Shown here: piece after piece, positions 43,434-63,941 of the stretch
Numbering within the stretch: position 1 is the first letter of the stretch
How the letters are laid out: each line of letters starts with the position of its first letter
Assembly (NCBI GenBank): GCA_002221725.1
Contig: NJFT01000157.1
Coordinates: 35,071 to 99,070, forward strand
DNA length: 64,000 nucleotides
DNA from: Scedosporium boydii
Lineage: Eukaryota; Ascomycota; Sordariomycetes; Microascales; Microascaceae
Direction of reading: 5' to 3'
Translations under genes and position numbers: made by a program
Notes under the pieces: generated by a model
What the model was told of the DNA's origin: nothing
The model's input: the letters and a program-made list of their open reading frames with translations, nothing else
Databases searched by the model: none

Positions 43434-44164
43434 CAGAGTGTAGCCGAATAGAAAAAGACGTTGACGCCGTCCGACTTCTTAACTATATATCAGGTAACTG
43501 GGATGGCGTAACATTTCAGGGACCCTACATTACAATTCTGTCGACTAATAGCTGCGCATTGCAGATAATAATATTACCTATTTTTCAATGTTAAGCTTGG
43601 GCTTCGGTGTAGGGGATATCGCGTCCAGAACCCGGGAAACCGGGGACACGCAATAGTGAGGTGTAGAGGAGGCTTAGGTGCATTCGATGCTCATCGTTTA
43701 TGGTGCCTGGTCTAATCGCCGGTATTAATGCCTGATCTTTTACCCACGGTATAATGGTTCACGGATGCACCGTCATGTACGAAGTAAACTAGCCTTTGCT
43801 TCAAAGTTTTAGCAACCTTTGCCGCCTGTTACCCCCTGTTGGCTTCGCCATGCTATATTTTAGTGATCCTGCACTGCGAGAGGCCGCAAACTTCGTGAAT
43901 AACTAAAATCATTCGACTGCCGAAACCACACATATGGCCCAGCCCATTACAGGACGTGATGTTTATTTCCAACTAGTTAATGCGGTGTAATAGATCTCAT
44001 TTCCATCTAACGCTGAGTGGGCTCATACCTGCCGTATTAGACTAGGGTGGTTCAATGTTATTTCTCTTTCTTTCCCTTGCACTAGGAGCACTTCAATGCT
44101 TGTCCAGTAAATGCGAATCTTATCTACCATATCCGGATGGTCGGCGTACATAGCACGGCGGCAT

Positions 44165-44175
44165 CGGAAAATCCG
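44165..44175. promoter_or_regulatory. CGG-N5-CCG site, permease promoter (1)
   Basis: CGGAAAATCCG inside the full palindrome TCGG-N5-CCGA, 270 bp upstream of the amino-acid permease start. An everted/inverted CGG pair is the recognition form of Zn2Cys6 dimers. Confidence 0.7.
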
Positions 44176-44192
44176 ACATCGATTTTATTGAT

Positions 44193-44203
44193 CGGACGAG
44201 CCG
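44193..44203. promoter_or_regulatory. CGG-N5-CCG site, permease promoter (2)
   Basis: CGGACGAGCCG, flanked by T and A, 28 bp after the first site and 242 bp upstream of the permease start. The spacing between site starts is near three helical turns. Confidence 0.7.
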
Positions 44204-44444
44204 ACTATCGTGCAATTCGGGTCTTCGTATTCCACTAGAGCCGATAAGAAGGTTCGCTCGACGTGTAGTCTACATCAGCTCGAACATATAGATAGTTCAA
44301 TGCCCGCTTATCGATCAAAACTAGGAATCAATATGGGTATAAGAATACCGAATTTTCCCGTATAATGGGCTCTCAGAAAAGCGGCACAAACTGAGCTCTT
44401 AAGACCTTGAAGCTACGCGATTCATATACTCTCCAACTAAAGCC

Positions 44445-46034
44445 ATGGACATCTCGCACTCATCGGGGAAAAACAGCTCCGCCGGCGACGACAAAGATAC
44501 TGCTAAGATAGAGCAGAGAGCGGAGTCAATTGGCATAGAAGAAGAGCTTCATCACCCATCTACCAAACGAGGTCTTACGGCACGCCATGCCATATTTATC
44601 GCTTGGGGTGGGACCGTCGGGACGGGCCTCTTCATCACCACCGGAAAAACTCTAGCTATCGGCGGCCCAGCGTTCCTCGTCGGTAGCTACGTGTTCGTAT
44701 CGATCCTGGTATATTTTATCCTCACTGGAATCATCGAGATGGCGACATTTCTTCCTGTTCGCGGAGGTTCCATGAGCCGCTACGGCAGACGCTTCGTCTC
44801 TAACAGCGTCGGGTTTACGATGGGCTGGCTTTACTTCTACTCTTTCGCCATCCTGGTTCCGTTCGAACTTACCGCGTGTGCTATTATCATCGACTTCTGG
44901 CAACCTGACATCAACAGCGCAGTCTGGATCACCATTCTACTGGTGTTGCTGGTTATTCTCAATGTTCTTCCGGTACGATTCTATGGAGAAGCAGAATTCT
45001 TCTTCACCGGAGTCAAACTGGCAACCATCGTCGGACTGCTAATTCTTTCGTTCGTCCTGTTCTGGGGAGGAGGGCCCGATCACAAGAGGCTTGGGTTCCA
45101 TTATTGGAAGAACCCTGGCGCGACAAAAACCTTGATATTAGAAGGCGACGCCGGAAGGCTGGTTGCAGCCATTGCCACTGTGATCAGCAGTATCCTGCCC
45201 TTTACTTTTACGCCCGAGATGGTGGTTGGAACGGCGGCCGAGATCAAATCGCCGAGAACAAACGTCCCCAAAGTCGCAAAACATTTCCTCTGGAGACTGA
45301 TCGTTTGTTTCGTTGGAAGCGTTGTTGGTATTTCGGTCATCTGTCCCTCCGACGCTGCGGCCCTCATGAATGGATCAGACGCTGCGTCTTCTCCTTGGGT
45401 CGTGGGTATTCGCCAAGCCGGGATCCACGGTCTGGATAGTGTGATCAACGCCGTGGCTCTCATAGCGGCTTGGTCAACCGGCAATGCATTCCTTTACCTC
45501 GCCAGCCGGTGTCTCCACTCGATGGCGATGGAAGGCAGCGCGCCTCCGATTTTCAAAAGGTGCACTGCTAAGGGAGTGCCTATCAACGCAGTCGGGGCCA
45601 CGGCGTGTGTTTCCCTCTTAGCTTACTTGACTCTCAATGCTTCCTCGTCCAGTGTTTTCAGCTGGTTACTGAATTTGATTAACACCGGAGGCTTTTTGTC
45701 ATGGATCTGTTGTTCGGTTACATATCTTCGCTTCCGGAGAGCCTGTGCGGTGCAGGGCGTTCCCAAGTCGGAGCTCACTCAGAGGTCCCCGCTACAACCC
45801 GTTATATCATGGATTGCCCTCGTCTTGTTTTCTCTCTTGTGTTTATTGAATGGGTTTACAGTTTTCTTTCCGTCCGAGTGGTCGATTGCTTCGTTCTTTT
45901 CCGCTTATATTGGTTTACCGGTGTTCGTAGTCATGTACCTGGTTCATCGACTCATTTATCGCGAAGAACCCTGGGCCATTCCATCACACCTTGTGGATTT
46001 ACAGCCGGATCCGGCAGAGTTGGATGATGAGTGA
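44445..46034 (+). CDS. Amino-acid permease (APC superfamily, YAT type)
   Basis: 529 residues, one exon. After a ~45-residue charged cytosolic tail come 12 predicted membrane segments. Segment 1 carries IAWGGTVGTGLFITTG, the unwound substrate-binding helix of the APC fold, and FTFTPEMVVGTAAEIKSPR is the conserved segment-6/loop motif of fungal amino-acid permeases. It should import amino acids or related amines with protons at the plasma membrane; the exact substrate is not readable. Two CGG-N5-CCG sites in its promoter tie it to the cluster at right, so an aromatic amino acid or derivative is a reasonable guess. It is convergent with the P450 reductase gene. Confidence 0.93.
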   Translation: MDISHSSGKNSSAGDDKDTAKIEQRAESIGIEEELHHPSTKRGLTARHAIFIAWGGTVGTGLFITTGKTLAIGGPAFLVGSYVFVSILVYFILTGIIEMATFLPVRGGSMSRYGRRFVSNSVGFTMGWLYFYSFAILVPFELTACAIIIDFWQPDINSAVWITILLVLLVILNVLPVRFYGEAEFFFTGVKLATIVGLLILSFVLFWGGGPDHKRLGFHYWKNPGATKTLILEGDAGRLVAAIATVISSILPFTFTPEMVVGTAAEIKSPRTNVPKVAKHFLWRLIVCFVGSVVGISVICPSDAAALMNGSDAASSPWVVGIRQAGIHGLDSVINAVALIAAWSTGNAFLYLASRCLHSMAMEGSAPPIFKRCTAKGVPINAVGATACVSLLAYLTLNASSSSVFSWLLNLINTGGFLSWICCSVTYLRFRRACAVQGVPKSELTQRSPLQPVISWIALVLFSLLCLLNGFTVFFPSEWSIASFFSAYIGLPVFVVMYLVHRLIYREEPWAIPSHLVDLQPDPAELDDE

Positions 46035-46670
46035 TTTGCCGTGGCTATGACAGGACGAACGCTATACGGCAGGGTTTGCGGCTCTCCGTGGAAATCCTAA
46101 AGCTACCGGGTACTTCTTATAGCTTAGAGAATCTTTTATGAAACTTCGCAGAAAATAAAGATGAGCACCACAATTTGTGCGTCCTAATGGCTCTCTGGAC
46201 CAAGGCATCTACTGCACAGCAAGCTCTACCCCCTCCGCGAGCACCCTTGGCCCCTCAGCTTCGGTCGTCAAACCCACTTGAGAATTACAAGATAACTGTC
46301 GAGGGCGGGACTGGCGTAACGGAAGCATTTCTGGTAAACGTACTACTCATTACAGGAAATGGGCTTTTAACATATTACAGGCTGACGGCGATGCATATTG
46401 TCGTTCGGCTGAGTTCGACTAACTTACTTGTGCAAGTTGAAGTTCATCACAGTCCTCTGTGTAGGGATGCATATGTTGGCGCGCACTCGCGTTTAACTAT
46501 AATATTATTGATAAATGCGAGTGCCGCGGAGTAAATAGAATTAACTTTTCTTTTCCCGATAAAAAAAAACTTGAATTTATTGAGCAGTTATTGATGCCCA
46601 CTCGTGATCATGCGGGATAAGAAAAAGAATAGCATGGTAATTTAACGTCATTTCAATGTTATGTCTTTCG
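46035..46670. other. Intergenic between convergent genes
   Basis: 640 bp, AT-rich, with an A9 run near 46561. No gene seen. Confidence 0.55.
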
Positions 46671-48866
46671 TTACCAAACATCTTCCTATTATGGTATCAT
46701 GGCATTAGCAAGGGATTCAGGCTTGGCAGTTCTTTCAGTATTTGATTAGCCTACTGACCTGGTATTGTTGTCTTGATTTCATATCGCTTAAAAACTTCTC
46801 CGCATCTGATCTAGAAAGATTATTCTGCTCAACTAGAATTTGGACCAAGGCAGCGTTCACTTGTCGAGCCATGCTGTTGGCATCTCCGCAGATGTAAATA
46901 TGTGCTCCTTGCGAAACAAGCCTAGAAACAGCTCGTGCGTGTTCTCGAAGCCGATGTTGAACGTAAACCTTTTCCGGGCCCTCTCTAGAGAAAGCCGTGA
47001 TGAATTCGAACGCATCACTAAGTACGTTCTTATACCTCTGCCACGTCGTCAGTTTGAAAGTGGTCTCGGCCAACGTGCAGTCGACCTGCGAGAACTTACC
47101 TCCCATTCGGTGGCATAGATCAAGTCTTCAGATGACTTCCGGCATCCAAAGAAAAGGAGCATTTGGCCCACTTTCTGGCCCTGCTCCGCATTCCTGACAC
47201 GTTCTTGAATGAAGGCACGAAATGGAGCAACCCCAGTACCAGGTCCGATCATAATAACGGGACATTTGGTGTCGGCTGGTAATCTGAAATGAGAGTGACG
47301 GATATGGATTGGCAGCCTCACGTCCCTGCGCGTATTCCGGGGACCATGTAACTGATAGGAAAGTCTGAAACTATCAGGAGGAACCTCGCAGTTCTGGTGG
47401 TATTTCAAGGCCAGTAAATAGTTTGTTGCTAACCCCTTGAAAGGCTTCTCCTGGTCCTTTACTACCTTGGACTCGACCACGGCCGTGATCGACACCATGC
47501 GAGGTTGCGCTAGCGACGAGGACGATATGGAGTAATACCGAGGTTGTAATTTGCCGAGCCCTTCGATAATGGCGGAATGGGGGACGTCCCTCCATGTGTC
47601 GCCTCTGCTGACTCTTGCTAGTAAACTGGCAAGGTTGAAATACGCTGATCTTGTTTCTTGAAGGAAATGATCCCTATCCCGGCCCAGAAGGGCCATCCTC
47701 TCCTGTGCCTCCTCACTTGGGGCGAAGCTTGCAAGAGTAGCACACAGTTGACGGGACACCGGTGCGCAGATTTCCAAGTAATACCGGAAGAGCGCGTCAA
47801 AGGTCGTAGGAGTCGGGAACGGGACCTTAACCGAGCTATCCACTGCCTTGATGTCAACAACTCGGTTCCTCGTCTCCCAGAGGTTGAGAATTTGGAGAAG
47901 GCTCTCCACCTCCTCGCTCGGGCTGTTAGGCCAGACGGCGATATGATCGCCAGTAGTGTACGAGAAATTTGAATCACCGAGGTCGATTTCCAGGTGCAAG
48001 CAGTTTCTATCTTTGCTAGAAAAGAGCTCGGATGACTCCGAGACAACGGCAAGGTAGGGGTTGTGAGCATCGTATGGTCCTTGCGGAGCGCTTCGTAGAG
48101 CGTCCGTGGTGGGCTCACCCAGAAACACCCCATTCGAAGTGGGCGTAAGTTCATCGCGGGGCGATATCGCGAAAGTGGGTTCGTAGACAATGGATCGCTC
48201 TTTCAAGTTAAACATCTTTGCGAGCGGTGTCCACATAGACCCTTTCCACGCCAAGAAGTCTTCTTCCAAGCCCCCCTTGCCATCGTCTCCCTCTCCAACA
48301 TCCCCCAGCCGGTTTGCCCCGAGGTCCGTAAGCGCTTGATTCACAGAGCGAACCATCCAGTTGTACTTTTCATAGGTGCTATTGCCCAGACCGAAAGCGG
48401 CAAACGAGAGGTCACGCAAAGGGGAAGGGTTGTCGGCGGAGAGAAGTTCGCCTGATGTAATGAATGTGTGAAAGTCGACGGCGTTGTCGGTCGGCTCGCC
48501 CTCGCCATAAGTTGCGAGAACGAAGATGAGAATTGTACTTCTAGGAAGCTGACCGAGGCGATCGTAATCGTACTCCTCGAGGTCTGCAACCATCGTGTTC
48601 AGCCCGAAACGACTTTTGCCTTCCTTGGCAAGACGTGCGGCATAATCTTCCGCAGTCCCCGTTTGAGAGCCATAGAAGACGACACAGTTCTTGTTGGTTC
48701 TTTTGATGATCTCGACGATATCTCTGGAGGGATCGGGTCTAGGTTCAGGGCTAGGTGTCTCATAGGTGCCGAGTTTGGCCTTGGGCCTTGGCCGTTGCCC
48801 AAAGTAGAAAATTAGTAGGAGTATTCCTCCCAAGACGAAAGGGTCGATCAACGCGTTGAGTCCCAT
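46671..48866 (-). CDS. NADPH-cytochrome P450 reductase
   Basis: Exons 48866-47100, 47037-46759 and a 15-base terminal exon 46685-46671; introns of 62 and 73 bp; 686 residues. Reading through the second intron would end the protein SRLIKY; splicing gives QYQEDVW, the conserved Trp end that stacks on FAD. The N-terminal membrane anchor is at ~8-22. The FMN domain has [12 protein letters not shown] (~65-76) and [11 protein letters not shown]. The FAD domain has RYYSISSS. The NADPH part has [12 protein letters not shown] and [10 protein letters not shown]. The enzyme passes electrons from NADPH to microsomal P450s. It is divergent from a CYP504-like P450 gene and shares a promoter with two CGG-N5-CCG sites, so this may be a cluster-dedicated reductase and not the general one. 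Confidence 0.95.
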
Positions 48867-49010
48867 CTTCTGGCTGTCGCAACTGCAACCAAATTAGTCA
48901 ACAGAAATGCAAATGCAGAAGGTATCGCTCACTCTACATTAGCTTCTCGATCGTCGCTGGCATGCCTCATGTAGTTTCGCCAAGCAGTGCACTGGGCCGT
49001 AACCGGAAGT

Positions 49011-49021
49011 CGGACATCCCG
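49011..49021. promoter_or_regulatory. CGG-N5-CCG site near the P450 reductase
   Basis: CGGACATCCCG with flanking T and A, 145 bp upstream of the reductase start codon. Confidence 0.7.
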
Positions 49022-49660
49022 ATCGTCTTGTCAAAGGTTTGTCGGATGATGCGACCAAATGCCACTGGGCACATTGAGTGGGTTTATTTGGCGTAAGTTC
49101 ATGTGGAGGAATTTTGTGCTTGGGCTTCTGCTCCTGGCATATACTGCGGGTGACGTTCAGACTCAGTGAGGTCGAGTGCCAGCAAAACCACTTCGTCTCA
49201 CTAGTCTCATCGACATGATAAGGTAACCGTGTTGTATTAGAGCATCAGATCTAAATGGAACTAATGGATTTTTGAACATGTACATGTCAAAATATGCATC
49301 AATCACAATCTTTGCGCCAGTAATGCCCTTGCGTTTCATGAAGTGAAGAACCTGTTTTGCAACATCCGATGTAGTCCGATCCCAGTCATGGTCAAATCAA
49401 TCCATAATACATTATCGTTGAATTTAATAAACCATCCACCATTAGAGAAGGTGACGTCGATACACGCCGTGGCTTTTTACGCCTCACCTATTGGAATTCG
49501 AGGTGTGCCCTGCTCTAATCTATCCTCCGAAGTCCGATACTCATGGGGTACCCATCTTAACGCCCTTGTTTAAGGCAAGGATTCTTTCTCATGTCGTCGG
49601 CGCCGCCGCCTGGACACCCACCCTGGGTATGATCGGAAGTATCTCCAATTCTCCTACAGT

Positions 49661-49671
49661 CGGAGCATCCG
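49661..49671. promoter_or_regulatory. CGG-N5-CCG site near the P450
   Basis: CGGAGCATCCG, flanked by T on the left and C on the right, 228 bp upstream of the P450 start codon. Confidence 0.6.
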
Positions 49672-49898
49672 CCAACCTGGCAAAGATCATCATTCCCGCA
49701 GAGGGAGAGATGCGGAGTCGAGGGCGAAACGGGAAAAAAAAAAAAAACATAAGTTACCCATTTGAATGCGAGCCATTTTTGAAATTGACGATAAATCATC
49801 TTAACAATCATTCGATTCTTGATCATCCTCCATAGCACGGTCTGTTTTGCTGTTTCAATCTTTTCTAACTCGACTCATCTTTCGAATCTTCATCAATT

Positions 49899-51706
49899 AT
49901 GGACCCCAAGGCTCGTATCTCCTCCGATTGGCTGGCATACCAGTGGCATCAGCTCAAGGGTCAAGAGCATGCCGGACCAGTCTTGACGGCGGTTGTGGTG
50001 GTGTTGCTCACCTACGTGCTTTACAGTGTAAGCGTCCTCGTACCCAAACCCAAGCTGGCGTCATTGCTTGCTTCTTCCTGATGTGGCGCGCAGCAAGTTG
50101 ACAAATCTTTGATAGGTAATGTTTGCCACGGACATTCCTCATATCAAGGGCATGCCGGAGATTCCTGGCGCAGTTCCGGTGTTTGGACACCTTTTGAAGC
50201 TCGGCGAGGATCACGCCAGTGTTTGCGAGAAATGGTGGCGCCAGTACAACCATTCAGTCTTCCAGATTAAGCTGGGGAACACCAGGGCCGTGGTCGTCAA
50301 TTCCTTCGAAGACTGCAAGAAGATGCTTCTTGGCAACCAGAATGCAGTCATTGACCGCCCCAAGCTCTACACCTTCCATGGCGTAATCAGCAGCACTCAA
50401 GGCTTCACCATCGGGTCTTCGCCCTGGGATGACTCTTGCAAGAAGAAGCGAAAGGCTGCTGGTACGGCTTTAGGCAGACCTGCATTGAGAAACTACTATC
50501 CCATGTTCGACTTGGAGAGCTACTGCATTCTGCGAGACATGAAGAGGGATAGCCAGGGCCAGATCGAGATTGACGTTCGCCCTTACATCCAGCGGTACGC
50601 GCTCAACACCACATTGACTCTCTGCTATGGCATTCGCATGGACAACGTGTACGACGATCTACTTCGTGAGATTCTCCACGTGGGATCGGCCATCTCTCTG
50701 TTGCGCAGCGCCTCCGAGAACCTGCAAGATTATGTGCCAGCGTTGAGGTATATCCCCAACAACGAGAAGATTGCTCGGTCAAAGGAGCTTCGGGGGCGAC
50801 GAGACGCCTACCTGGATCTCCTCTTGACCAAGGTCCGAGAGATGATTCAGAACGGCACGGATAAGCCGTGTATCTCGGCCGCCATTCTCAAGGACGAGGA
50901 GACCAAGCTCACGGGCGTCGAAGTCTCGTCAATTTGTTTGTCTCTGGTTTCTGGCGGCTTTGAGACGATTCCCGGAACTTTGACCTCCTGCATCGGATCT
51001 CTTTCGACCAAGGAAGGGCAAGCATGGCAAGATCGGGCCTACGAGGACATCAAACGTCATTATCCCGACATTCGCGATGCTTGGACTGCCTGCTTTAAGG
51101 AAGAAAAAATTCCCTACATTAATGCGATCGTCAAAGAGGCCGGCCGATACTATACCGTCAGCTCCATGAGTCTGCCGAGGAAGACTGTCACAGAGGTCAA
51201 CTGGAACGGTGCTATTATTCCTCCCAAGACCATGATCTTGATCAATGCCCAAGCTGGCAATCATGGTGAGTTTATCCGCAACTACAGGGCCCCTACGGCT
51301 TGTCGTCGAAAAAGTCTTTCTAACGTTGGTAGATGTTGATCATTTCGGTCCGGACGCGGGGAGCTTTAATCCCGAGAGGTGGCTTAAGAGCCTGAACCCT
51401 CCCACAGAGGATACCAGTGGTCTGGGCCACCTAAGTTTCGGCACTGGTTCTCGTGCTTGTTCGGGCCAGTACATCGCTGCTCGCCTTTTGTACGCCGCGT
51501 TGGTGAGGCTTCTATCTTCCTATAAGATCGTGGCCAGCAAAGAACACCCTCCCAACACCGACTACGTGGAGTACAACCAGTTCAAAACCGCGCTGGTTGC
51601 GATCCCGAGGGAATTTAAGGTTAAGCTCATCCCCAGGGACGCGGCCATGCTGGATGAGTGCTTGGACCTTGCGGAGCAGAGGACCCGTGATCATTACAAG
51701 GAGTAG
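49899..51706 (+). CDS. Cytochrome P450, CYP504-like (phenylacetate hydroxylase type)
   Basis: Exons 49899-50027, 50116-51265 and 51333-51706; introns of 88 and 67 bp; 550 residues. A membrane anchor lies at ~29-43. The Pro-rich hinge PEIPGAVPVFGHL follows. The I-helix is GGFETIPG, the K-helix ExxR is EAGR, and the haem motif is FGTGSRACSG with Cys469. The passages WRQYNHSVFQIKLGNTRAVV, STQGFTIGSSPWD and RKAAGTALGRPALRNYYPMF are characteristic of CYP504, whose known members (Aspergillus PhacA/PhacB) hydroxylate phenylacetate at C2 or 3-hydroxyphenylacetate at C6 on the way to homogentisate. The neighbouring reductase would supply electrons. Which arylacetate this copy uses cannot be told. Confidence 0.9.
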
Positions 51707-52284
51707 GCTCCCCCGGGCCTTTTTTGCCGGCGCTGGCTTGAAGCTTTGTTCCATGAGTGAAGACCCATGTACGCGGGATGTGGTCCGAGACCTGCCAATG
51801 AAGAACATGATACGATCTATATCAGGAACATTACAGGAATAGTTGCGTGGCAACAGCGCAGGCTCAATATTAGGCGAATTGCGCTCGTTCTCGTGTTATT
51901 AGCAATTACCAGGGAGAGTTTAATGAGACGGTAATTCGAATTAACAACATCTGTTCGTGTGCAAATGCTGAGAAGTTTTGAACTATTAAAGGTCGATCAC
52001 CGGCTGATAAACGGCGATAATGGCTAGATTTTATTGACATCGCTGTACAAACGTTGGCGGTGTGTAAATGGTGGCAAAGGCGGGCCGGAAAGCCTAGACT
52101 CACTTGAACTTATCGTTTCCGGCGGAGTCACCATTGCGCAAGAATATTTATGAACATTCAATAGACGGAATATATATATCTCTCTGACATGTCTCTTGAC
52201 TATTCTATACTCCGAAGGCAGGGAGACATCAAAAATGAGTAGGACACCAGTCTATTAACGGGGAGCTCACGTTGTGTTTCTACT
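51707..52284. other. Intergenic between convergent genes
   Basis: 580 bp between the 3' ends of the P450 and RidA genes; AT-rich, nothing recognised and no CGG-N5-CCG site. Confidence 0.6.
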
Positions 52285-52740
52285 CTAAGCCTCGACGACT
52301 GCAACTGCCTTAACTTCCACAATCATTCGGGGATCCGGTAATTCCTTAACGCCAATGGTAGCTCTAGCCGGAGCAACAGCACGAGTCGTGAACACTTTGT
52401 TCCATTCCTCATTCATACCAGCATAGTAGCGCTCCATGTCCAGAATATAGACCACAGCGTCAATCACGTTGTGGATTCCGCCCTTCCCGTCTGTCGCACC
52501 CTTGATGATGTTGTCGACGTTCTCGAGGACCGCAGCAGTTTGCTTGCGGATGTCTAGAGTGCGTGTTCCGTCCGAGTTTTCGGTAACGCCCGGCCAGGTG
52601 CCATCCGGCCGACAGCACGCCGTCCCGGAAATGTAGATAGTGCGGTGGTTCGCGAGGGGGGCGAGGCGCGCTTGTGCAAATCGTGTGGCACCTTCAGGCG
52701 CATCAGGCTTGGTTAGGTATGCTTGTCCGTTGGGAGACAT
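52285..52740 (-). CDS. RidA/YjgF-family deaminase (2-aminomuconate deaminase type)
   Basis: 151 residues, one exon. The frame is open ~270 bp upstream, but the ATG at 52740 begins MSPNGQAYLTKPDAPEGATR, the normal start of this family. The trimeric chorismate-mutase-like barrel is shown by NHRTIYISGTACCRPDGTW, the RKQTAAVLENVDNII helix and the C-terminal block RATIGVKELPDPRMIVEVKA, whose Arg binds the substrate carboxylate. Family members hydrolyse reactive enamines/imines; one branch is 2-aminomuconate deaminase in aminophenol breakdown. Beside an amine oxidase it could clear imines or act on a nitrogen-bearing ring-cleavage product. It is divergent from the MFS gene, with 423 bp between starts and two regulatory sites. 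Confidence 0.87.
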   Translation of the reverse strand: MSPNGQAYLTKPDAPEGATRFAQARLAPLANHRTIYISGTACCRPDGTWPGVTENSDGTRTLDIRKQTAAVLENVDNIIKGATDGKGGIHNVIDAVVYILDMERYYAGMNEEWNKVFTTRAVAPARATIGVKELPDPRMIVEVKAVAVVEA

Positions 52741-52939
52741 GGCGATCGCGAGGAGCTGACTTGTAGATTGTAGATGTGTATTGGAAATGGGGTTGATGTT
52801 TCGATGACGGATGTGATTTTCAAGGTCAAAATCAAGGTCAAACACAGGGGCCCTATAATATTTTGAAGGCAACAACTTTGGTCTCGTTCTCTCGTCATTG
52901 CGGTCCCGTATATGAGATCTTTTCGTTGGGCAATGTTGT

Positions 52940-52950
52940 CGGAGGATCCG
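52940..52950. promoter_or_regulatory. CGG-N5-CCG site, RidA/MFS promoter (1)
   Basis: CGGAGGATCCG in the full form TCGG-N5-CCGA. Confidence 0.7.
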
Positions 52951-52973
52951 ACTCACACTTGATCGGTATCCAT

Positions 52974-52984
52974 CGGCCCATCCG
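52974..52984. promoter_or_regulatory. CGG-N5-CCG site, RidA/MFS promoter (2)
   Basis: CGGCCCATCCG in the full form TCGG-N5-CCGA, 34 bp after the first site. Confidence 0.7.
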
Positions 52985-53163
52985 AAATCACCATCCAGTT
53001 CAAACCATCGCAAAGCAGGATTCTAACGGCCGATTAGGAGGATCGTTTCAAATTCTCCTGATATTCGTTATTTCCAATTGATATCTGATGAGATCCAGAA
53101 GCTCGATCCCCAGTAATACCACCAAAACCAAACGAATTGTCAATCCTAAACCTGTCACTGGTC

Positions 53164-54607: not shown

Positions 54608-55445
54608 CTAGGCGGTGGCTTTGCTCCCCTCCATCTGTTGGGTATGCTCTCTTCTTGGAACATGGTTTATTACTGTAGTACAGAATTGGTGAGTTGGTTT
54701 TGGTTAGCGTACTGAGCGCAATGCCACTGAACTTGAAAAGGGGGATGTAAAGGTTAGGGTCGTGCCACAGAGTGAAGAGGCACAGTAGAGCTGATGAAGG
54801 TCAAGTGTAGGTATGGTAGTAAATATCCACTAATCGCTGATTCCTCCCATTTCCCAAGGATATAACACCCCTTAAATACGCGAGTGTAGTCCTGCCCTTG
54901 ATCGTATAGAGGTCTTAGGGTGGTGCGATCCCTCTTACGATTCATCCCCTTATCGAACGGTCGTCCCCTCGAGGCCTCCACGAGAACGCCTATAGAGCCC
55001 CTCCTAAGATGGGCTTATTCTCCTTCTAGCGCGGTTCCTTTAGATCCTCCAGCCTATCCTACGGCGACCTCTATTTGCCCTAATGTCAGTGCCCCCCGTA
55101 GGCGGTAGTTGCAATAGCTGACGCCCGAGGTATCTCCTCTCCGGAGCGCGGCCTTCTGGAGGTCTCGCGTGGCTCTGTGCCAGACAAGGGAGACATCGAC
55201 GGCGTATCTAACGTCACACAACCTCGTGGTGGCCATAGATTAGACTATTAGAGTGATGTATTTGATCAAAACAGGATAGTAGAGTCTTCACGCCGTGGCT
55301 CGAAATTTTAAGTCTACAGAAGCTTGAGCACGTAGGAATATACGATAATCGTTGCCTATTTATAAAGTCGACACTGTTCGACATTCTGATTCATTTACCA
55401 AAGTGGAGTACGTGCTGCCTCCCTCCCAAATCTGACACCACTCCA
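54608..55445. other. Intergenic with a GC-richer, possibly foreign segment
   Basis: 840 bp between convergent genes. The segment ~54890-55245 is GC-richer than its AT-rich flanks and, on the minus strand, reads like broken coding sequence (TTRLCDVRYAVDVSLVWHRA, then several TAG/TAA stops). It may be a short relic of a mobile element or gene; the family is not recognised. Confidence 0.35.
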
Positions 55446-57627
55446 TCAGAGTTTTGGCTTGCCCTCGGGCTCACTGAACGAGTTTGCAACTTCGGGTGAA
55501 GCCAATTTCGAAGATGGATCCTTCACCACTTCGGAGGGAGGAACCCATAACGCAGGGTTTTTTTCGAAGAAGTTACTTGCGCGAACCGTGACGCTCACAG
55601 GTTCAGCTGGCATGATGGGGAAGTCTTCGGTGCGCGGGAAGTGTGTTAGTCCAAATTGTATATAACAGACGATGTCGGTGTTGTCGATGGAGCCATCACG
55701 AGCGACCCAGTCCGTGATGGTCTCATTATCTGGGTGATTTTGGCCGGTGGATTGACAGACATATGATCCCGCCGGGAATCGCTGATCCTCCGCATATGGC
55801 AAAACCCAAAGTGCTTTGGTTGCAAAAGCTCCTCTTCTAGCCACAATACTGTCACTCTGGGCTAGGAGAGCAGGGCATGATAAGTTGATGATCTTATAGG
55901 CCACAGGCTTCTTCGAGACCCTGTTAATGCGGTTCGGGTTGATAATGTCCCACGTCCGACTGGTCTGGTGATTGTACTCGGCTCCGGCCTCTTTGGCGGT
56001 GCGGAAAACGGTTTTCTTGGCCAAGAAGCCATTGCCATAAGGGTTGTGCTTGGACCTTACCGGGCCGCTAGACTGCACAGCATCGGTTTGAACCACGGTA
56101 TTGAAGGGCCCGTCAACCTCGGGGTCGATCCGCAAAGAAAATATATGCTGGTGGTTTTGCGCATCGATCCCTTTGGCCACTTCCGTTCCGTAAGGTGCCG
56201 ATTCCTCGGATGCGTGAAGGCAATAGGTATTAAGCATACCCGTGAGCTTGACCTCGCACTTGTAGGTCCCATCTAGGGTAAAAGTATGGTAGAAAGCATA
56301 CTCGTAGTTAGCTGCAGTTAAAATCTGCGAGATGATGAGCTTCCGGTCCCGAGCCGAAACAACCGTGTTATCTCGAAAATCGGTATGCTTGTACAGGAGC
56401 CCGTTATCTTCTTCGTGAATACACACCGCGTTCTTAATGGTCCATGGCTGGCCGTCGCCGGACACCAAGTGCGCATCCAAGTAGTGAATAGTGCCTTTAC
56501 AGTCGCAACCTAACTTGAGCGAGTTGGCCATGTACCCGGCACCATACTCCCCAATATCGAACGCAAATTTCCGATGGTGAGGGTTCTTTGGGGAACCGTA
56601 TGGGACAAACATCTCTACAACGCTGAGCCTGTTGAAGATCTTGCGTGGGCGGTTTTCGTAAGGGTCGAGAATACGCACGTCGGAAAGCACGAGGCCTTCG
56701 CGATAATTGAAGCCAATGTGCATCTTCAGTCCGGCCCATTCAAGCTCGTTCCCGTTCATCTGAAAGGATACTCCCCGAGGCTGCGAGATCTCGATTGGTT
56801 TCAAGACATCAAGTCGATAACCATGTCCGATGAGCTCGGGAAGGTAGTTGTGTTTCTCCCGAGGGAACCGCGTACGTTCTCCATTTACTAGCTGAATGTC
56901 CACGGCGAGGATCTCCTCCGTTTCGGTATCGGCAATGACGGTAAAATCAAGGGGGTGAGCGTACTGGTTGTCTGACGGAAATTCACGATAATAGGCTAGG
57001 GCTTGCTGCAATCTATGCTCAAATCCCCAACGTTCCTCCACACCGATTGCCCAGCCGTCGAAATAGACCTTGGACATATCGGTGATTCCGATACCCCGGC
57101 AAGCATCGATGACGGCAGGATGAACCCTGGCAATTCTTTCAATGAGGTCCAGATCCTCCAGGGTGAGAATCGGCATGACATCTCTCATATTGCGCCATGA
57201 TTCGACTTGAGACGTGACCAGGTTGACGGTCACTTCAGAGACCTGCTGGTTCTTCCTGGATATGACTACAGCCAAGGATCGCCTAACAGGGCGCTTGCCA
57301 TTGAGATCCCTGAATACGGCGTACTCGGCCTTGGTCGGCTCAATGAGGGTGACGCTGTTGAACTTGATGCCCGCAGGAGCTGCAGACCGCACAAGGGCAG
57401 TGGTGGTGCTAATCTCCTGGGGAGATAAGGGATCTAATTAATAGATAGTATATCAGCCAGCGTTCTACATAGTACGAACCATTTCACTGCATTGGCTCAA
57501 GTAACCACACGGGAGGCATATTAATGTGCACCGGAAACCTACCAAGAGGATGCGGCGTCGATCTCGCTACATGCGGTTTGGTGGGGTCCGACGAGGAGCG
57601 AGCGCCGGCACAGCAGGAAGCAGACAT
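55446..57627 (-). CDS. Copper amine oxidase (topaquinone), probably peroxisomal
   Basis: Exons 57627-57543 and 57433-55446; the 109-bp intron restores HPLDPLSPQEISTTTALVR, the family N-terminus; 690 residues. Tyr405 in TAANYEYAF (N-Y-D/E) is the precursor of the topaquinone cofactor. Asp321 (AFDIGEYGAG) is the catalytic base. Copper ligands are His456 and His458 (NHQHIF) and the His of LTHFPRTEDFP. The enzyme oxidises primary amines to aldehydes with release of NH3 and H2O2. The C-terminus is Pro-Lys-Leu, matching the type-1 peroxisomal targeting signal, so H2O2 would be produced where catalase is. In this cluster a phenethylamine- or tyramine-like substrate would give an arylacetaldehyde, one step before the arylacetate used by CYP504. 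Two regulatory sites lie 160-200 bp upstream. Confidence 0.95.
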
Positions 57628-57789
57628 GTTTGTTTGTTATTTTTGCTTTTTGGGGGGAGCAAGACTTGGGCAAAACGAATAGAGTGGAGTCTTTGGAAAT
57701 GGCCTATAGATGAGTGAGGTTGAGATGAGACGACTGAGTTGTGCTTTATTAAGAGTTCGGGGTTTGGGGTTAGTTTCCCTGCCTATCGG

Positions 57790-57800
57790 CGGAGCAGCCG
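57790..57800. promoter_or_regulatory. CGG-N5-CCG site, amine oxidase promoter (1)
   Basis: CGGAGCAGCCG, flanked by G and A, 163 bp upstream of the amine oxidase start. Confidence 0.6.
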
Positions 57801-57821
57801 AAAGGCCTGAATTGGGAAAAT

Positions 57822-57832
57822 CGGAAATGCCG
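57822..57832. promoter_or_regulatory. CGG-N5-CCG site, amine oxidase promoter (2)
   Basis: CGGAAATGCCG in the full form TCGG-N5-CCGA, 195 bp upstream of the amine oxidase start and 391 bp before the hydrolase start. Confidence 0.7.
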
Positions 57833-58222
57833 AAGCCCTTAATTCTTGTGGACCTGACCCAGAACCCTGACCGCCGCAACATCGGTATCGCATAGGCCAT
57901 CAAATACATTCGATCTACATAGACACAGATAACTAAGTATAACCAACGGCGGGCCAAGTCTGGCCTTCTTCTCTTTTCTTTCCCTCTTTCTTCTTTTTTT
58001 TTTTTTGGTCCCCATGCGTGGAGAAGCTATACCTTCGCTCCCCACAGCAAAAGCCATTGATCTTGGTAGGCTTAGATAGCTGGCTTTCGGGCCATAAATA
58101 AAACGTGCCCTCGGAGGCTCCGAAGGGCCATATCTTCAGGACCCAAGGTATATTAACAGAACCGCTCTAAATTACCCACGTCGAAGGGAAACACTTCTCC
58201 TATCGTAGCCACCCATATCACC

Positions 58223-59227
58223 ATGTTAGAAAGTACAGTCCAGCACTATCAAATCAGCGATTTCGCCTTCAAGGACTGGCCCGGCCCGGCTTCGGTCCAG
58301 CTGGCGTATCGGGACATCAATCCAACTGCAGAGAAAACAGCACTGGTATTGACCTGTTTTCGCGGCCGGCTCCAGTCAACTTTGACCTTCACCCATGGCG
58401 CACTCAAAGATTACAGAGTCATTGTGGTGGCGTTATTCGGCAACGGTGAATCCTCAAGCCCTTCTAATTTGACGGATTTTCCCCGGTCATTAATAGACTA
58501 TCAAGATTGCGTCCATGCTCAACACCAGTTACTCACTTGCCATCTCAATCTCCAAACCATTGATGTTCTCGTTGGTTTCTCCATGGGAGGCCAGTGCTCG
58601 TACTACTGGACCTTGATGTACCCCGAACTGGTCCGCAACGCGGTTATTATTTGTTCCTCGGCTCGGACCAGCCGTCACAATTACCAGTTCCTGGAAGGCC
58701 CGAAAGCCGCACTGGAGTATTCCGCCGACTACTGGAAGGTGGATGACTATGGATCCTCATCGTTAAGGGCACTCGGCGGACTGCGCGCTTTCGGCAAAGC
58801 CTATTCAGCTTGGTTGACGAGCCCCGAGTGGTTCGAACAGGAGATGTTCAAGTCGTTAGGATACGAGACATTGAGCGACTGGGATCACGATGCGGCTGGG
58901 ACAAACTACTACAATTGGAACGCTGACGACTTGCTCTCCATGATAGGCATGTGGCAGAAAGGCGACGTCACCTCACTCTTGGGGCGAGGAGAAGATGTAT
59001 CGTTACGGGAAGCGCTCTCGCGGATCAAGGCGCGCGTCCTGCTCATGCCATGTCAGACGGACCAGTACTTCCGCTGGGAAGCATCCGAAAAGGAGTCCCA
59101 TTGTATTCCTCGTGTAACGTTCAAGGTCATACCCTCTGCATGGGGCCATCTGGCGGGACTGGGCATCAACGCGGTGGACAGAGACTGGATGGATGAGGCG
59201 ATTGTTGAGTTTTTGAAGGAGCAGTGA
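58223..59227 (+). CDS. Alpha/beta hydrolase, homoserine-acetyltransferase-like branch
   Basis: 334 residues, one exon. The nucleophile elbow VGFSMGGQCSYYW places Ser120. An acid after strand 7 is offered by QTDQYF and the His by SAWGHLAG near the C-terminus, completing a triad. Sequence style (YRDINP near the start, long middle lid with DYWKVDDYGSS) fits the fungal MET2-like hydrolase branch, where many members are esterases or amide hydrolases and not true acetyltransferases; the length is short for homoserine acetyltransferase. Its role in the cluster could be opening an ester, lactone or amide. It is convergent with the amidase gene, only 103 bp between stops. Confidence 0.8.
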   Translation: MLESTVQHYQISDFAFKDWPGPASVQLAYRDINPTAEKTALVLTCFRGRLQSTLTFTHGALKDYRVIVVALFGNGESSSPSNLTDFPRSLIDYQDCVHAQHQLLTCHLNLQTIDVLVGFSMGGQCSYYWTLMYPELVRNAVIICSSARTSRHNYQFLEGPKAALEYSADYWKVDDYGSSSLRALGGLRAFGKAYSAWLTSPEWFEQEMFKSLGYETLSDWDHDAAGTNYYNWNADDLLSMIGMWQKGDVTSLLGRGEDVSLREALSRIKARVLLMPCQTDQYFRWEASEKESHCIPRVTFKVIPSAWGHLAGLGINAVDRDWMDEAIVEFLKEQ

Positions 59228-59330
59228 TTTAAGGACTTATCTCTCTTGTGTGTGGCAAGAATGATTTCCACTATTAAATTATTATATATATTATTCACTC
59301 AAATCAAGAGCAGACAATTGCAAGACATCA

Positions 59331-61064
59331 TTACTTGCCGGAGCCGACTCCGTTCTGAACCAGCTCCCGCCCCATTTCAAACAAAGCCGCAGCCTCAATG
59401 ACCTGCTCGTCTGCCCATCGTCTTCCAACAAGTTGCATGCCAAGAGGAAGCGGGACATGTGGCTGGCATTTAAGTGTCGATGACCCACAAGGGACGCTCA
59501 GGCCGGGATGGCCGGTGACGTTGAAAGGACAGGTGTTGCTTGTTAAACCAATGGCAACAGCAAGCCTATCCAAGATGGACGCCTTCTTGCCGCCGTCGAT
59601 TGGGTCCGGATGAGGCATCGCAACTGTCGGAGCACAAGGCGTGACTAGGACGTCAACATGCTCCAAGGCGGAATCGTAGGCAGCTCTGAGCTCAAAAACC
59701 AGACGGTGCGCCTTGGCTTCTACCCCTGCCTTGGAGAACTCTCTGGCGAACCTCTCACTAAGCATGATGTTGACCACTGCTGGGTTGTTTGACGTGAGGG
59801 TATCGTACGTCTCCTGGGACAGCGGCCACTTGATTTGCGTATGCGGTGACAGGTAAGCAAGGTGGCCAGATGGGTTTCCTTGACACAAATAAGTAGACAT
59901 AGACGGCCGAGTTGCTGCCGTCCATATTGCTGGACCTTGCTGGTGCAGCGGGATGGATACCTCCACGACAGAAGCACCGACGGCCTCGAAGTACCGCGTC
60001 GCTGCCTGCCAGACAGTATCTCTCACGTCGGAAGCAACCCCGGGCATGGAGAAGGACTCCTTTAAGAGACCAACTCTCAGTCTCTGACCCGGCTTTGGTG
60101 TGGACAGGGCCTCGTGGCGCACGCGGAGTAACATGCTCAGGTAAGGTTTTACTTGATGCGCCAAGGGGCTTTCTGGAGTCATTCGCGGGTCGTAGCCGTC
60201 ATAGCCTGCCATAACCTCCAGCATGACAGCAAGATCTTCAAGCTTTGCGGCCAGTGGACCTAGATGATCAATCATGGGAGACATCGACGCGGCTCCAGTG
60301 TAGGGAACAAGACCAAACGTGGGCTTCAGTCCGTAAATGCCATTGTAGGAAGCCGGAATGCGCACCGACCCGGCTTGGTCGCTGCCGATGGCCAGCTCAA
60401 CAGTGTGACCCCACGAGCCATCCTCGGTTGATGCCAAGCGGTGAGCCGTGACGAGGACTGCAGAGCCGCTGCTACTTCCACCAGCTGTATAGTTGTGCAG
60501 AAGGGGATTGTGAACCGGCCCTGTCGCCGAGGTGAAGGACAAGGGAGACGCACAAAAGCTTTCGCAAGTTGACGTTCCTTTAATGATACCGCCGGATCCA
60601 AGAATACGTGACACCACGACTGCGTCGATAGGTGAAACTGGGTATCCATCCCCCTGAGGGAATAATGATCGGGGCACTCCGAGTGTTGTTGGCAACCCTC
60701 CGACAGATATGTTATCCTTGATGGCAATGGTACGTCCGGCCAGCAAGTTGTTTGTTGGAGATGCGGATCTTATATCGCATTGATGACTCCAGGCGTTAAA
60801 CGGGTTGTCTTCGGATGCTGGTCTCCAAAACCTACGAGGTTCCAGCGTCTTGTGAGGAAGCAGTTCCGGTGCGACGTAGTCGGGCGCATCATCAACACTT
60901 TTCATGACCGCCTCGAGCGACCTTAACAGGGTAAGATAATCTTCGGCATCTTGGCTATCCAGAGTCTCAACGTGGAGCTGAGCTGCAAGTGTCCGTAGGA
61001 CTCGGCCGTTGATGTTGGAGCTACGTCGCTTATTAGCCAAGACATCACTGAAGCTTATTTCCAT
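59331..61064 (-). CDS. Amidase signature (AS) family amidase
   Basis: 577 residues, one exon. The Ser-cisSer-Lys triad is present: Lys116 (TIAIKDNIS), the cis-Ser in the Gly-rich run GGSSSGSA (~197-199) and nucleophile Ser233 (GSDQAGSVRIPAS). YGLKPTFGLVPYTGAASM and PMIDHLGPLA complete the AS core. The family hydrolyses amides to acid and ammonia. In this context an arylacetamide is a plausible substrate and would yield the acid used by the P450. The N-terminal ~90 residues form the helical region seen in larger fungal AS enzymes. A full-form TCGG-N5-CCGA site lies 220 bp upstream. Confidence 0.92.
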   Translation of the reverse strand: MEISFSDVLANKRRSSNINGRVLRTLAAQLHVETLDSQDAEDYLTLLRSLEAVMKSVDDAPDYVAPELLPHKTLEPRRFWRPASEDNPFNAWSHQCDIRSASPTNNLLAGRTIAIKDNISVGGLPTTLGVPRSLFPQGDGYPVSPIDAVVVSRILGSGGIIKGTSTCESFCASPLSFTSATGPVHNPLLHNYTAGGSSSGSAVLVTAHRLASTEDGSWGHTVELAIGSDQAGSVRIPASYNGIYGLKPTFGLVPYTGAASMSPMIDHLGPLAAKLEDLAVMLEVMAGYDGYDPRMTPESPLAHQVKPYLSMLLRVRHEALSTPKPGQRLRVGLLKESFSMPGVASDVRDTVWQAATRYFEAVGASVVEVSIPLHQQGPAIWTAATRPSMSTYLCQGNPSGHLAYLSPHTQIKWPLSQETYDTLTSNNPAVVNIMLSERFAREFSKAGVEAKAHRLVFELRAAYDSALEHVDVLVTPCAPTVAMPHPDPIDGGKKASILDRLAVAIGLTSNTCPFNVTGHPGLSVPCGSSTLKCQPHVPLPLGMQLVGRRWADEQVIEAAALFEMGRELVQNGVGSGK

Positions 61065-61108
61065 GGCTGTTGCTTACCCTACTCCGTCTGAGAGCGATAT
61101 GATGGACA

Positions 61109-61140
61109 TTTTTTTTTTTTAAAAAAAAAAATTTTTTTTT
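61109..61140. repeat. T12-A11-T9 homopolymer tract
   Basis: Three abutting runs: T at 61109-61120, A at 61121-61131 and T at 61132-61140. It can pair with itself, and also resembles nucleosome-excluding poly(dA:dT) promoter tracts. It lies 45 bp upstream of the amidase start codon. Confidence 0.85.
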
Positions 61141-61283
61141 CTTACTCGAGTTGGAAAGAAAGGAAGAATGGTTTTGGGTTGTATTGTTCTCGCCTAAGTC
61201 ACAGCCTCTCGAGATCCTGGGCGGAAGTAATAGACGCTTCAATTGTACTCTTTTGAGATGCTCAGGTATGGTTTCCATGTTGT

Positions 61284-61294
61284 CGGCCGAGCCG
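61284..61294. promoter_or_regulatory. CGG-N5-CCG site, amidase promoter
   Basis: CGGCCGAGCCG in the full form TCGG-N5-CCGA, 220 bp upstream of the amidase start. Confidence 0.7.
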
Positions 61295-61604
61295 AAGGCG
61301 CCAGGGCCTCCCTCTTTTTTTTTTTTTTTTTTCTCTCGAGTTATTGTCAAACAGACTCTCTGTCTGATTCTGCTTTATTTTTTACCCTCCTCGTTAACCT
61401 CTTCCGAACATTGTATTCAGCTTGGTGTCCAATTGCTAAATTTTTTCACAATAGAATCGGTATTATTAAAGACCAAGACAAACGATGATGAACTTCGATT
61501 GACCCTTTTAACTAGTTTGAATATACTAAGACGTGGTTTCAGTGGCACATCCCCGAAATGTGAAGTAATCATATTTCCCTGCTCAGCATTTTCAATTTGT
61601 GCCA

Positions 61605-62810
61605 TCACTCTTGACCATTCGCCAGAAGAACGCGACCACCGTCTACGCAAAGGGATATTCCATCGACGTAGGCCTAAACACACGACGTCAGCATCGTTCC
61701 GATTCTGAGGGTAGGTGAAGCAATCCCGAATCAAGGTCGTGCCTGCTTACCCCGGCACGGCTGACGAGATACAGGATCGTGCCAGCAATATCATCCTCGT
61801 TTCCTGCTCTCTTGGCAGGGACCTGGTCGAAAAGGGCGCTGAAGAGGTTCCCCTCCTCCCCAATAGGATTCATGCTGCTTGGAACAACTGAATTGATCAG
61901 CAATTGTGATCAAGTGTGTGGTTCCATTTTCAACTGCTAGAACCACTCACAGCCTGGGTTTATTCCCACCACTCGTACGTAAAAGCGGCTGAATTTGGCC
62001 GCCAGCAGCTTGACAAGATGGTCAGTGGCGGCTTTGCTCGTGGCGTAGCTGGTCAGGTCTATATTTGTCGCGTTGTGCATGCTCGCACACGAGCTTGACA
62101 TAACAACCACTCCCCGACCCTCGCTTCTACCGAGCCGACCATCGCCAAGATCAAGCCGCGAGGCCGCCTCTAGCAACGGCAGGAATGCCACGGAGAGGAA
62201 GTAATGAGCAGTGGTATTCACGCAAAATGAGTCGGCCCAGTCCGAGTGTCGCGAGGACCACATCGATGCCTGCAGCTCGGATAAGGATGCGGTCAATACG
62301 TTACATCTGACGGGAGGATCTCGCCTGATGCCAGCGTTGGAAATAAGAATATCGACATGTTTTTCTCGTTGGCTGATCTGGGCAGCAAGATTTTGGATGG
62401 CCGTTTTATCAGAGACATCGCAGGGGGTTCTGGATTGACAAATTAGGACCAGTTTGGTACCTATTATATTATTCGTAAATGGTTATGGTCACAACTTGCC
62501 CATGTGCAGATCCTCCGGATGCCTTGCCAAGCTCGTTGAGTTCCTCACAGCTTTTGTTGATGGCCTCAGTTCGTTTACCCACGAGGTACACTTTAGCGCC
62601 ATTTGCAACAAGCCCCTGTCAGGATGGTCAAGTCAGTATGTCAGATGTCAGGGTGCAATGGCGCAAAACGGCAAGGGTTGTGAGGTGTATGGTGAATTGG
62701 CGATGTATGCATACTCTAGCAATCATAAAACCCAGGCCACTATTACCCCCAGTCACAACTGCCACGTATCCCTTCACCCCAAACAAACTTTCAGTATGAA
62801 GAGAAGACAT
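61605..62810 (-). CDS. Short-chain dehydrogenase/reductase (SDR)
   Basis: Five exons: 62810-62715, 62615-62500, 62429-61951, 61887-61751 and 61673-61605; 298 residues. Intron 2 (62499-62430) starts with GCAAGT and so is a GC-AG intron; it is the only choice I found that joins GGSAHG to TPCDVSDKTAI in frame, and it has a CTAAT branch and CAG acceptor. The Rossmann motif is TGGNSGLG (~20-27), followed by CDVSD and NAGI; catalytic residues are in MSSSCAS and SYATSKAA (YxxxK). INPGF-VPSSMNPIG and AYVDGISLCVDGGR match classical SDRs. It should oxidise or reduce an alcohol/ketone with NAD(P). It is divergent from the Zn2Cys6 gene and has a full regulatory site 111 bp upstream. Confidence 0.87.
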
Positions 62811-63754
62811 GGCGGGCAAGTTGCTCTAAGATTTGTTACGGCGCTTTCGGTGGACTACGAGCTGTGGCACTCAGCTCTTTTAACTCAGGCTTTCCATACC
62901 CAGCGCCCACCTCTCTGTGTCGGACAGACCGACGAGTGTCGGGATTCGGGAATGTGACTGACATAGTCGGGCTAACCTTGTTCGGGCGACCCCTCCTCGA
63001 TCAAGTAAAAGGCGGCCATTACTATTATTATTATGCATGAGCCCCAAGCATCGAATGCGGAGTGCATTTGCCTACACTGGTCATTATAAATCACACCTCC
63101 TACGCAGAGGTCCTCCCCTGCCCTCCCCTTCCCGTGCCCGTACCTCGAATAGCCTCAAAGCGGTTTCCTGGTGTAAGTTGCTTGGTTTCCGAGCCTTTCG
63201 TACTGTATATTAACAGACTTCTAGCCAGTGTACGAAGTAAGTAACAGCTTATTAGGCTAGTATCCTATACGGGCAAATGAAGGTTCCACTCTCACCACCA
63301 TAAGGCCACCAGTGCCGCCCAGTCGTAGCAAGATGGAGGGTCAATGGAGGCTGTCACTGGGCCACGCACCAGCCACTTATCTGAAAACATACACATCCAA
63401 GCCAAGGTTCAATTATTGAGGTCCGTTGGTTTGTCATGCATGCTATCTCTGGGGAAGGTTTTGGGCTAGATCAACTCGGATAGCGCGAAACTGAATGCGG
63501 GGAAAGTGGAGCCCGCATGTAGTGTGTGGACGCACGCGTACACTCCAGAGTAGCAACCAGATACCAGCAGCAAGATAACAGCAAGCAAGATAAAGGCAGC
63601 AGACTTCGAGCTCCAGGGGTCCCCATCATGTGCTGGCTCTCGATGAGGGGTCGATAAGCAAACGCTAAAGAAGCTACATGGACCGCGCAACAAGGCGATT
63701 CTAGCTTTCTCTTGTCCTCTAATCTCCCTCTCGTTATTTGCCGCCCTTTCTCCA
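62811..63754. promoter_or_regulatory. Divergent promoter of SDR and Zn2Cys6 regulator
   Basis: 944 bp between divergent start codons. One CGG-N5-CCG site at 62921 sits on the SDR side. No coding frame supported. Confidence 0.55.
62921..62931. promoter_or_regulatory. CGG-N5-CCG site, SDR promoter
   Basis: CGGACAGACCG in the full form TCGG-N5-CCGA, 111 bp upstream of the SDR start. The same intergenic region leads to the regulator gene, allowing autoregulation. Confidence 0.7.
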
Positions 63755-63941
63755 ATGCCGCCCGACATCAACGCAGCTCCAGTTCCGGATTCGGCTCCAG
63801 CACGGGCACGGGCATCTTGCTCCCGCTGCCACAAGAGGAAGAAGAGATGCGATAGATCCTTGCCGTCATGCAAAAACTGCGTCTCGGCACGAGTGAGATG
63901 TAGCTTCGAAGACGATGATAACCAAACCGCTTCGTACCCTA
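63755..63941 (+). CDS. Zn2Cys6 transcription factor, 3' end missing
   Basis: The first exon starts MPPDINAAPVPDSAPAR and carries a complete zinc binuclear cluster, C-x2-C-x6-C-x6-C-x2-C-x6-C, at residues ~22-49 (CSRCHKRKKRC, then CKNC and RVRC). It then reaches a GTGAGT donor at about 63942, so the rest of the gene lies beyond the window; the sequence runs into homopolymers 20 bases later. Zn2Cys6 proteins bind CGG half-sites as dimers, and the linker just after the cluster sets the spacing. Being divergent from the SDR and next to the cluster, it is the prime candidate to bind the CGG-N5-CCG sites. The middle homology domain cannot be seen. Confidence 0.85.

Follow-up and report, generated by a model that had tools for sequence, protein, structure and literature searches.

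A TCGG-N5-CCGA palindrome upstream of the genes of a candidate Zn2Cys6 regulon in Scedosporium boydii

Do the inverted CGG repeats at the right-hand end of a Scedosporium boydii contig serve as operators of a single regulon? The DNA analysed here (the window) is the 64,000-nucleotide stretch from base 35071 to 99070 of contig C157 (NJFT01000157.1; 99,070 bases), whose right edge is the contig end. An earlier interpretation of this stretch (the sequence-only reading) had listed ten CGG-N5-CCG sites (N, any base) and placed them under one Zn2Cys6 regulator, whose truncated gene begins at 63755. Our analysis indicates that the sites are most likely operators of one pathway-specific regulon run by the Zn2Cys6 protein encoded at 63755, which we infer to bind them.

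All ten sites were located where the sequence-only reading had placed them. Eight are TCGG-N5-CCGA (hereafter full sites), as it had said, and the remaining two are TCGG..CCGC (49661) and GCGG..CCGA (57790). The bare 6-base core is weakly enriched in the window, with 24 copies versus 15.49 expected from shuffling (4 of 100 shuffles reach 24). The full site was found 12 times versus 1.19 expected, a count that none of 100 shuffles reached. Because the core stands at 24 versus 15.49 and the 8-base form at 12 versus 1.19, the signal lies in the 8-base form. The proposed chance rate of about one per 65 kilobases (kb) likewise holds for the 8-base form only and fails for the core. The earlier list lacked a full intergenic site at 58111 and a full site at 57079 in the amine oxidase coding sequence, as well as further cores that are intergenic (43762, 49598) or coding (50858, 58664, 59504). 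Its description of the sites as all intergenic therefore fits the ten listed but not the region as a whole, where coding sites are present.

The genome searched comprises 42,914,966 bases on 442 contigs, and the background controls were the genome-wide site density and the pattern read backwards (reversed control). TCGG-N5-CCGA occurs 764 times versus 743 for the reversed control. Background density is one site per 56 kb versus 12 sites in the 6.2 kb of cluster upstream DNA, and the comparison of density proposed in the sequence-only reading came out in favour of the cluster. Within the window, 10 of the 12 full sites fall in 44164-62932, and the segment 43434-64000 holds 10 versus 0.37 expected (Poisson P 8.6e-12). 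The other two (28416 and 30325), left of the cluster, are at chance level (2 sites in positions 1-43433, 0.77 expected in 43.4 kb); Pfam gave no match for the three open reading frames (ORFs) near them that were tested. No full site was found in C157 5071-35070, where 0.53 were expected.

Upstream placement was assessed in eight intergenic stretches lying before one or two genes (6,197 base pairs (bp) in total). The eighth was taken as the 907 bp lying between the aldehyde dehydrogenase ATG and the limit of the examined piece, with its far-side gene unmapped. Every upstream region carries a site, as had been claimed: all eight have at least one full site, 12 together, versus 0.11 expected. Consistent with a specific spacing, TCGG-Nx-CCGA occurs 12 times in these regions at x = 5 and 0-2 times at each other x from 0 to 30, including none at N6 and none at N3. 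The regions contain 17 N5 cores, 12 of them with TCGG..CCGA half-sites. The four convergent gaps (2.25 kb) hold no full site, and 12 of the 13 full sites of the cluster and its continuation on contig C202 (see below) are upstream, the thirteenth being the coding site at 57079. N6 sites were rejected as alternative operators: the region has three, all within coding spans (reductase, amidase, SDR), and TCGG-N6-CCGA numbers 724 genome-wide versus 831 for the reversed control. The distance proposed earlier, mostly 110-270 bp from a start codon, stands in a wider form: by the start codons assigned here, 10 of 13 genes have a full site about 110-320 bp away. In the three exceptions it is farther off, at 889 bp for the P450 (which has an imperfect site at 239 bp), 835 bp for the regulator and about 396 bp for the second permease. 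The sites are present in most cluster promoters and rare elsewhere.

Full-site pairs with a gap of 10-40 bp occur three times in the genome, two of them in this cluster (44164/44192 and 52939/52973), and never for the reversed control; a third pair in the cluster, 57789/57821, is imperfect. Start-to-start spacings of 28, 34 and 32 bp correspond to approximately three DNA turns, which is noted here as a plain observation. When the 13 full sites were aligned in both orientations, an A was found just inside TCGG in 16 of 26 half-sites, and the central three positions held almost no information, in sites chosen for their fixed arms. The sites are not copies of a repeat, since by eye their flanks differ from site to site.

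Genes were called with Pfam and hand-made exon models. The features, in window coordinates, with strand for genes and none for sites, are as follows.

44164-44176: candidate operator TCGGAAAATCCGA, forming a pair with the next site and lying 281 bp before the permease ATG
44192-44204: candidate operator TCGGACGAGCCGA, which completes the pair at a distance of 28 bp
44445-46034, + strand: amino acid permease (AA_permease PF00324, E 2.6e-113), start codon checked
46769-48866, - strand: NADPH-cytochrome P450 reductase-like gene (Flavodoxin_1, FAD_binding_1, NAD_binding_1), intron 47038-47099; hand-made model with provisional 3' end
49010-49022: candidate operator TCGGACATCCCGA between the divergent reductase and P450 genes, 144 bp to the reductase ATG and 889 bp to the P450 ATG
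49660-49672: imperfect site TCGGAGCATCCGC, 239 bp from the P450 ATG
49899-51706, + strand: P450 of the CYP504 (phenylacetate 2-hydroxylase) family, exons 49899-50027, 50116-51265 and 51333-51706
52285-52740, - strand: RidA/YjgF-like gene (Ribonuc_L-PSP PF01042), ATG checked
52939-52951: candidate operator TCGGAGGATCCGA between the divergent RidA and MFS genes, forming a pair with the next site
52973-52985: candidate operator TCGGCCCATCCGA, which completes the pair at a distance of 34 bp
53164-54608, + strand: MFS transporter (MFS_1 PF07690), provisional splice sites
55446-57627, - strand: copper amine oxidase (PF01179, E 1.7e-156), main exon 55446-57437 and a short first exon with ATG at 57627; provisional splice sites
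57079-57091: TCGGTGATTCCGA, within the amine oxidase coding sequence
57789-57801: imperfect site GCGGAGCAGCCGA, 32 bp from the next site
57821-57833: candidate operator TCGGAAATGCCGA in the divergent amine oxidase/hydrolase region
58111-58123: candidate operator TCGGAGGCTCCGA, 112 bp before the hydrolase ATG, absent from the earlier list
58223-59227, + strand: alpha/beta hydrolase (Abhydrolase_1)
59331-61064, - strand: amidase (PF01425, E 8e-65)
61283-61295: candidate operator TCGGCCGAGCCGA, upstream of the amidase
61608-62810, - strand: short-chain dehydrogenase (SDR) with several introns (Pfam), resembling the SDR half of fused P450-SDR models
62920-62932: candidate operator TCGGACAGACCGA in the divergent SDR/regulator region, 110 bp to the SDR ATG and 835 bp to the regulator ATG
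63755-63945, + strand: Zn2Cys6 regulator, first exon (C-X2-C-X6-C-X6-C-X2-C-X6-C), remainder on the minus strand of C202, from 74942 to 72813

Among the ORFs tested with Pfam, ten in the cluster and ten to its left, none matched a polyketide synthase, peptide synthetase or terpene synthase. Left of the cluster are a GH43 glycosidase (window 15235-17196), a HET-domain gene (19011-21314) and a sulfate permease (34631-36106).

The regulator that had been described as truncated proved to be a genuine Zn2Cys6 gene, interrupted where the contig stops; its remaining part was found on C202. Its first 63 residues have 21 relatives (in Penicillium, Aspergillus, Fusarium, Ilyonectria and others), and an orthologue with Zn_clus and Fungal_trans domains (P0123), used as query, identified the missing part on the C202 minus strand in three pieces of 60-80% identity. 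In our reading, C157 and C202 both end in the same regulator intron and the frame carries on across it. The break lies in the first intron of the regulator, at a run of A followed by G (window 63755-64000/C202 start). Because the contigs break within the gene, automatic annotation would probably give a truncated regulator. The first 9,029 bases of C202 (reversed) also encode an amino acid permease, a second SDR and an aldehyde dehydrogenase. Three more full sites are present in these 9.0 kb, where chance would give 0.16 (P 6e-4); the 10 kb of C202 that follow contain none.

C202 70106-70118: full site, divergent permease/SDR region
C202 66722-66734: full site, upstream of the aldehyde dehydrogenase
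C202 66358-66370: full site, upstream of the aldehyde dehydrogenase

Since the motif had been defined on the window beforehand, the excess on C202 comes close to an out-of-sample success, with the caveat that one C202 site was already known from the genome list, although the contig itself was picked by protein search. The proposal of one regulator for nine or ten genes is supported as to the single regulon and falls short as to size, which is 13 genes including the regulator and extends beyond the window.

Among the 120 best matches of the P450, the closest is a Fusarium decemcellulare protein (91% identity), with 88-89% identity to the four nearest Penicillium proteins, 84% to a protein named CYP504E1 from Beauveria bassiana and 80-89% to proteins that their sources name phenylacetate 2-hydroxylase, names that are transferred annotation. 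Judged by these matches the P450 belongs to the CYP504 family, and phenylacetate hydroxylation is predicted from those names. Linkage in relatives was taken from regulator and P450 matches of the same species on contigs of equal reported size, compared by eye; equal size is strong evidence for contigs of 0.15-0.5 megabases (Mb) and weak for the one of 8 Mb, and gives no distance. On this basis, regulator and CYP504 apparently lie on one contig in 8 of the 21 regulator matches: Penicillium nalgiovense, Penicillium egyptiacum, Aspergillus pseudoustus, Aspergillus cavernicola, Aspergillus granulosus, Dactylonectria estremocensis, Geosmithia morbida and Neonectria ditissima. Another 10 of the 21 have no same-species partner among the 120 best P450 matches. 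The main exon of the window SDR shares 62-73% identity with the SDR portion of five fused P450-SDR models (P0017, P0043, P0056, P0072 and P0079), and because these five models fuse the two genes, CYP504 and SDR are neighbours in five more fungi. Such fused CYP504-SDR models in public data are probably annotation merges.

These results suggest how the cluster may be wired. A homodimer of the Zn2Cys6 protein (63755, continued on C202) would bind TCGG-N5-CCGA with one zinc cluster on each TCGG half-site, and in the presence of an inducing nitrogen compound the regulator would activate the whole cluster, that is, at least 12 structural genes and presumably its own. Common operators would serve the divergent pairs reductase/P450, RidA/MFS, amine oxidase/hydrolase, SDR/regulator and second permease/second SDR. 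One cluster-encoded regulator very probably switches the genes on together, a co-induction that we infer from this arrangement. The two permeases and the MFS carrier would take up the substrate, copper amine oxidase and aldehyde dehydrogenase would convert an amine to the acid, and the amidase would convert an amide to the acid, which the CYP504 P450 with its own reductase might then hydroxylate. From the enzyme families, the substrate class could tentatively be put at an aryl-alkyl amine or amide, an assignment we regard as rather doubtful.

Several observations weigh against this interpretation. TCGG-N5-CCGA shows no overall genome-wide excess (764 versus 743), one full site (57079) lies within coding DNA, and an unassigned open frame of 125 residues overlaps the C202 site at 66358, which is therefore perhaps not intergenic. 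The ATGs of the P450 and of the regulator itself are 889 and 835 bp from the nearest full site. The contig sizes reported for regulator and P450 differ in 3 of the 11 comparable regulator matches (Penicillium expansum, F. decemcellulare and Ilyonectria robusta). The amine oxidase looks linked to the P450 in Fusarium torreyae only (one contig, near locus tags 011029 and 011037), and by eye the contig sizes differ in 12 other species that occur in both lists; in Penicillium cinerascens they share one 5 Mb contig with tags about 900 apart. By these contig comparisons, the amine oxidase is less bound to the cluster. The substrate is a guess from enzyme families. Finally, the genome has 48 matches to the regulator's orthologue, some of which are pieces of one gene, and these half-sites might also be read by further Zn2Cys6 proteins encoded there.

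The last point bears on whether the sites, as true cluster operators, might be bound by another Zn2Cys6 protein encoded elsewhere, with the 63755 regulator a target or in some other role. Many of the 48 matches lie in other genes, TCGG/CCGA half-sites are used by several described factors, and the regulator's own upstream region has a site (62920). Against this, the regulator gene lies within the site-bearing stretch, in some relatives it apparently shares a contig with the P450 (the 8 of 21 above), and among solved structures its orthologue is closest to Ppr1, itself a reader of TCGG/CCGA; we consider control by an outside factor unlikely. Chance clustering of an 8-base palindrome could appeal to the 764 genome copies, most of which, given a reversed control of 743, are probably chance occurrences. 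It is scarcely credible as an account of the cluster, where the Poisson probability in the window part is joined by the further excess on C202 and the excess is confined to spacing 5 and to upstream regions. The palindromes might instead work in RNA or chromatin, as hairpins in leader RNA or by nucleosome exclusion, and not as protein operators. This would fit their symmetry and their usual position 110-320 bp before start codons, and a yeast study deals with short inverted repeats and nucleosome exclusion (PMC6420913). A role of this kind is very improbable: a 4-bp arm with a 5-base loop makes a weak hairpin, the half-site matches that of Ppr1-type proteins, and the central three positions of the 13 full sites, chosen for fixed arms, hold almost no information. 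Operators read by the regulator encoded in the cluster remain the reading we favour.

Outside the cluster, a large regulon is not visible by finer forms of the motif, because these show no strong excess genome-wide: TCGGA-N3-TCCGA numbers 54 versus 56 for the reversed control, and TCGGA-N3-GCCGA 124 (both strands) versus 89. Loose CGG-N5-CCG pairs with a 12-38 bp gap were uninformative as a genome-wide signal (141 versus 219). The genome has four homogentisate dioxygenase (HgmA_C) matches (C228:25547, C271:7895, C292:40355 and C96:58624), which were rejected as further targets; one TCGG-N5-CCGA lies near two of the four, in both cases within the coding frame. P450 paralogues on C228, C271 and C27 (38-52% identical) were likewise rejected, the sole full site, on C271, being the coding one near the HgmA match. 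Two of the HgmA_C matches (C228 and C271) adjoin P450s sharing 38% and 52% identity with the CYP504 query, a pattern suggesting that the genome has several aromatic-acid routes in parallel, in addition to the window cluster.

A different locus, C187 34001-54000, has six CGGA-N3-TCCG in 20 kb versus 0.31 expected (P 9e-7 before correction for the genome-wide look); genome-wide this pattern numbers 655 versus 811 for the reversed control. At least four of the genome's 54 TCGGA-N3-TCCGA are located there. Nearby ORFs encode a cytochrome b5/FMN dehydrogenase and a phytanoyl-CoA-type dioxygenase, with weak matches below the Pfam cut-off to a flavin monooxygenase and MFS transporters, and C187:24451 has a weak match to the regulator's orthologue. 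The C187 locus may be a separate cluster regulon with five-base spacing.

For the cluster described here, sequence alone yields a testable wiring of regulator, operator and 12 target genes. The operator can serve in other fungi to detect genes under joint control and to set cluster boundaries, and N5 would be added to the spacing code of inverted TCGG/CCGA readers, where it may help show which linker feature sets the spacing. Neither N5 spacing as an operator nor this cluster was found in the open-access literature searched, motifs shown only as logos being outside its scope. A broader proposal, to which we give a little less than an even chance, is that TCGG-N5-CCGA represents a spacing class not yet described among Ppr1-like Zn2Cys6 proteins. 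Its readers would be a regulator family common to Penicillium, Aspergillus and Hypocreales, and the site would control an inducible, likewise undescribed route of amine/amide breakdown centred on a CYP504E P450 and its dedicated reductase.

Ppr1 of yeast and UaY of Aspergillus nidulans bind as dimers to inverted TCGG/CCGA half-sites separated by N6, and their targets are pyrimidine and purine genes. The present sites share these half-sites (12 of 17 upstream N5 cores) and differ in spacing, with 12 N5 and no N6 in the upstream regions. The best solved-structure match of P0123 is Ppr1 (1pyi, E 3.3e-5, residues 20-82, a modest score), in an alignment that spans the zinc cluster, the linker and the start of the coiled coil, with one inserted residue. 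Counted by hand, the linker between the sixth cysteine and the conserved Tyr-Val has 15 residues in P0123 versus 14 in Ppr1. AflR, a cluster-specific Zn2Cys6 factor, recognizes TCG-N5-CGA, a site two bases tighter than ours, which in the same notation is TCG-N7-CGA. The form CGG-N5-CCG does occur in the literature: a paper on AtrR gives one in the cdr1B promoter, among several possible spacings listed, with the binding sequence still undefined there (PMC5215518).

The kind of system, a cluster-specific Zn2Cys6 regulon, is already known. A closely comparable regulator is GliZ, to which SirZ of the sirodesmin cluster is related. In the relevant passage on GliZ, TCGGN3CCGA is proposed, not proven, as its site and lies before every gliotoxin cluster gene except gliZ and gliA (PMC4006717), and a passage of the SirZ paper contains the text TCGGNNNCCGA (PMC8191991). 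The Scedosporium cluster resembles the GliZ regulon in combining a cluster-encoded Zn2Cys6 regulator with TCGG-Nx-CCGA before nearly every cluster gene, and differs from it in spacing, five bases here versus three there, and in content, an apparently catabolic set here and a toxin cluster there.

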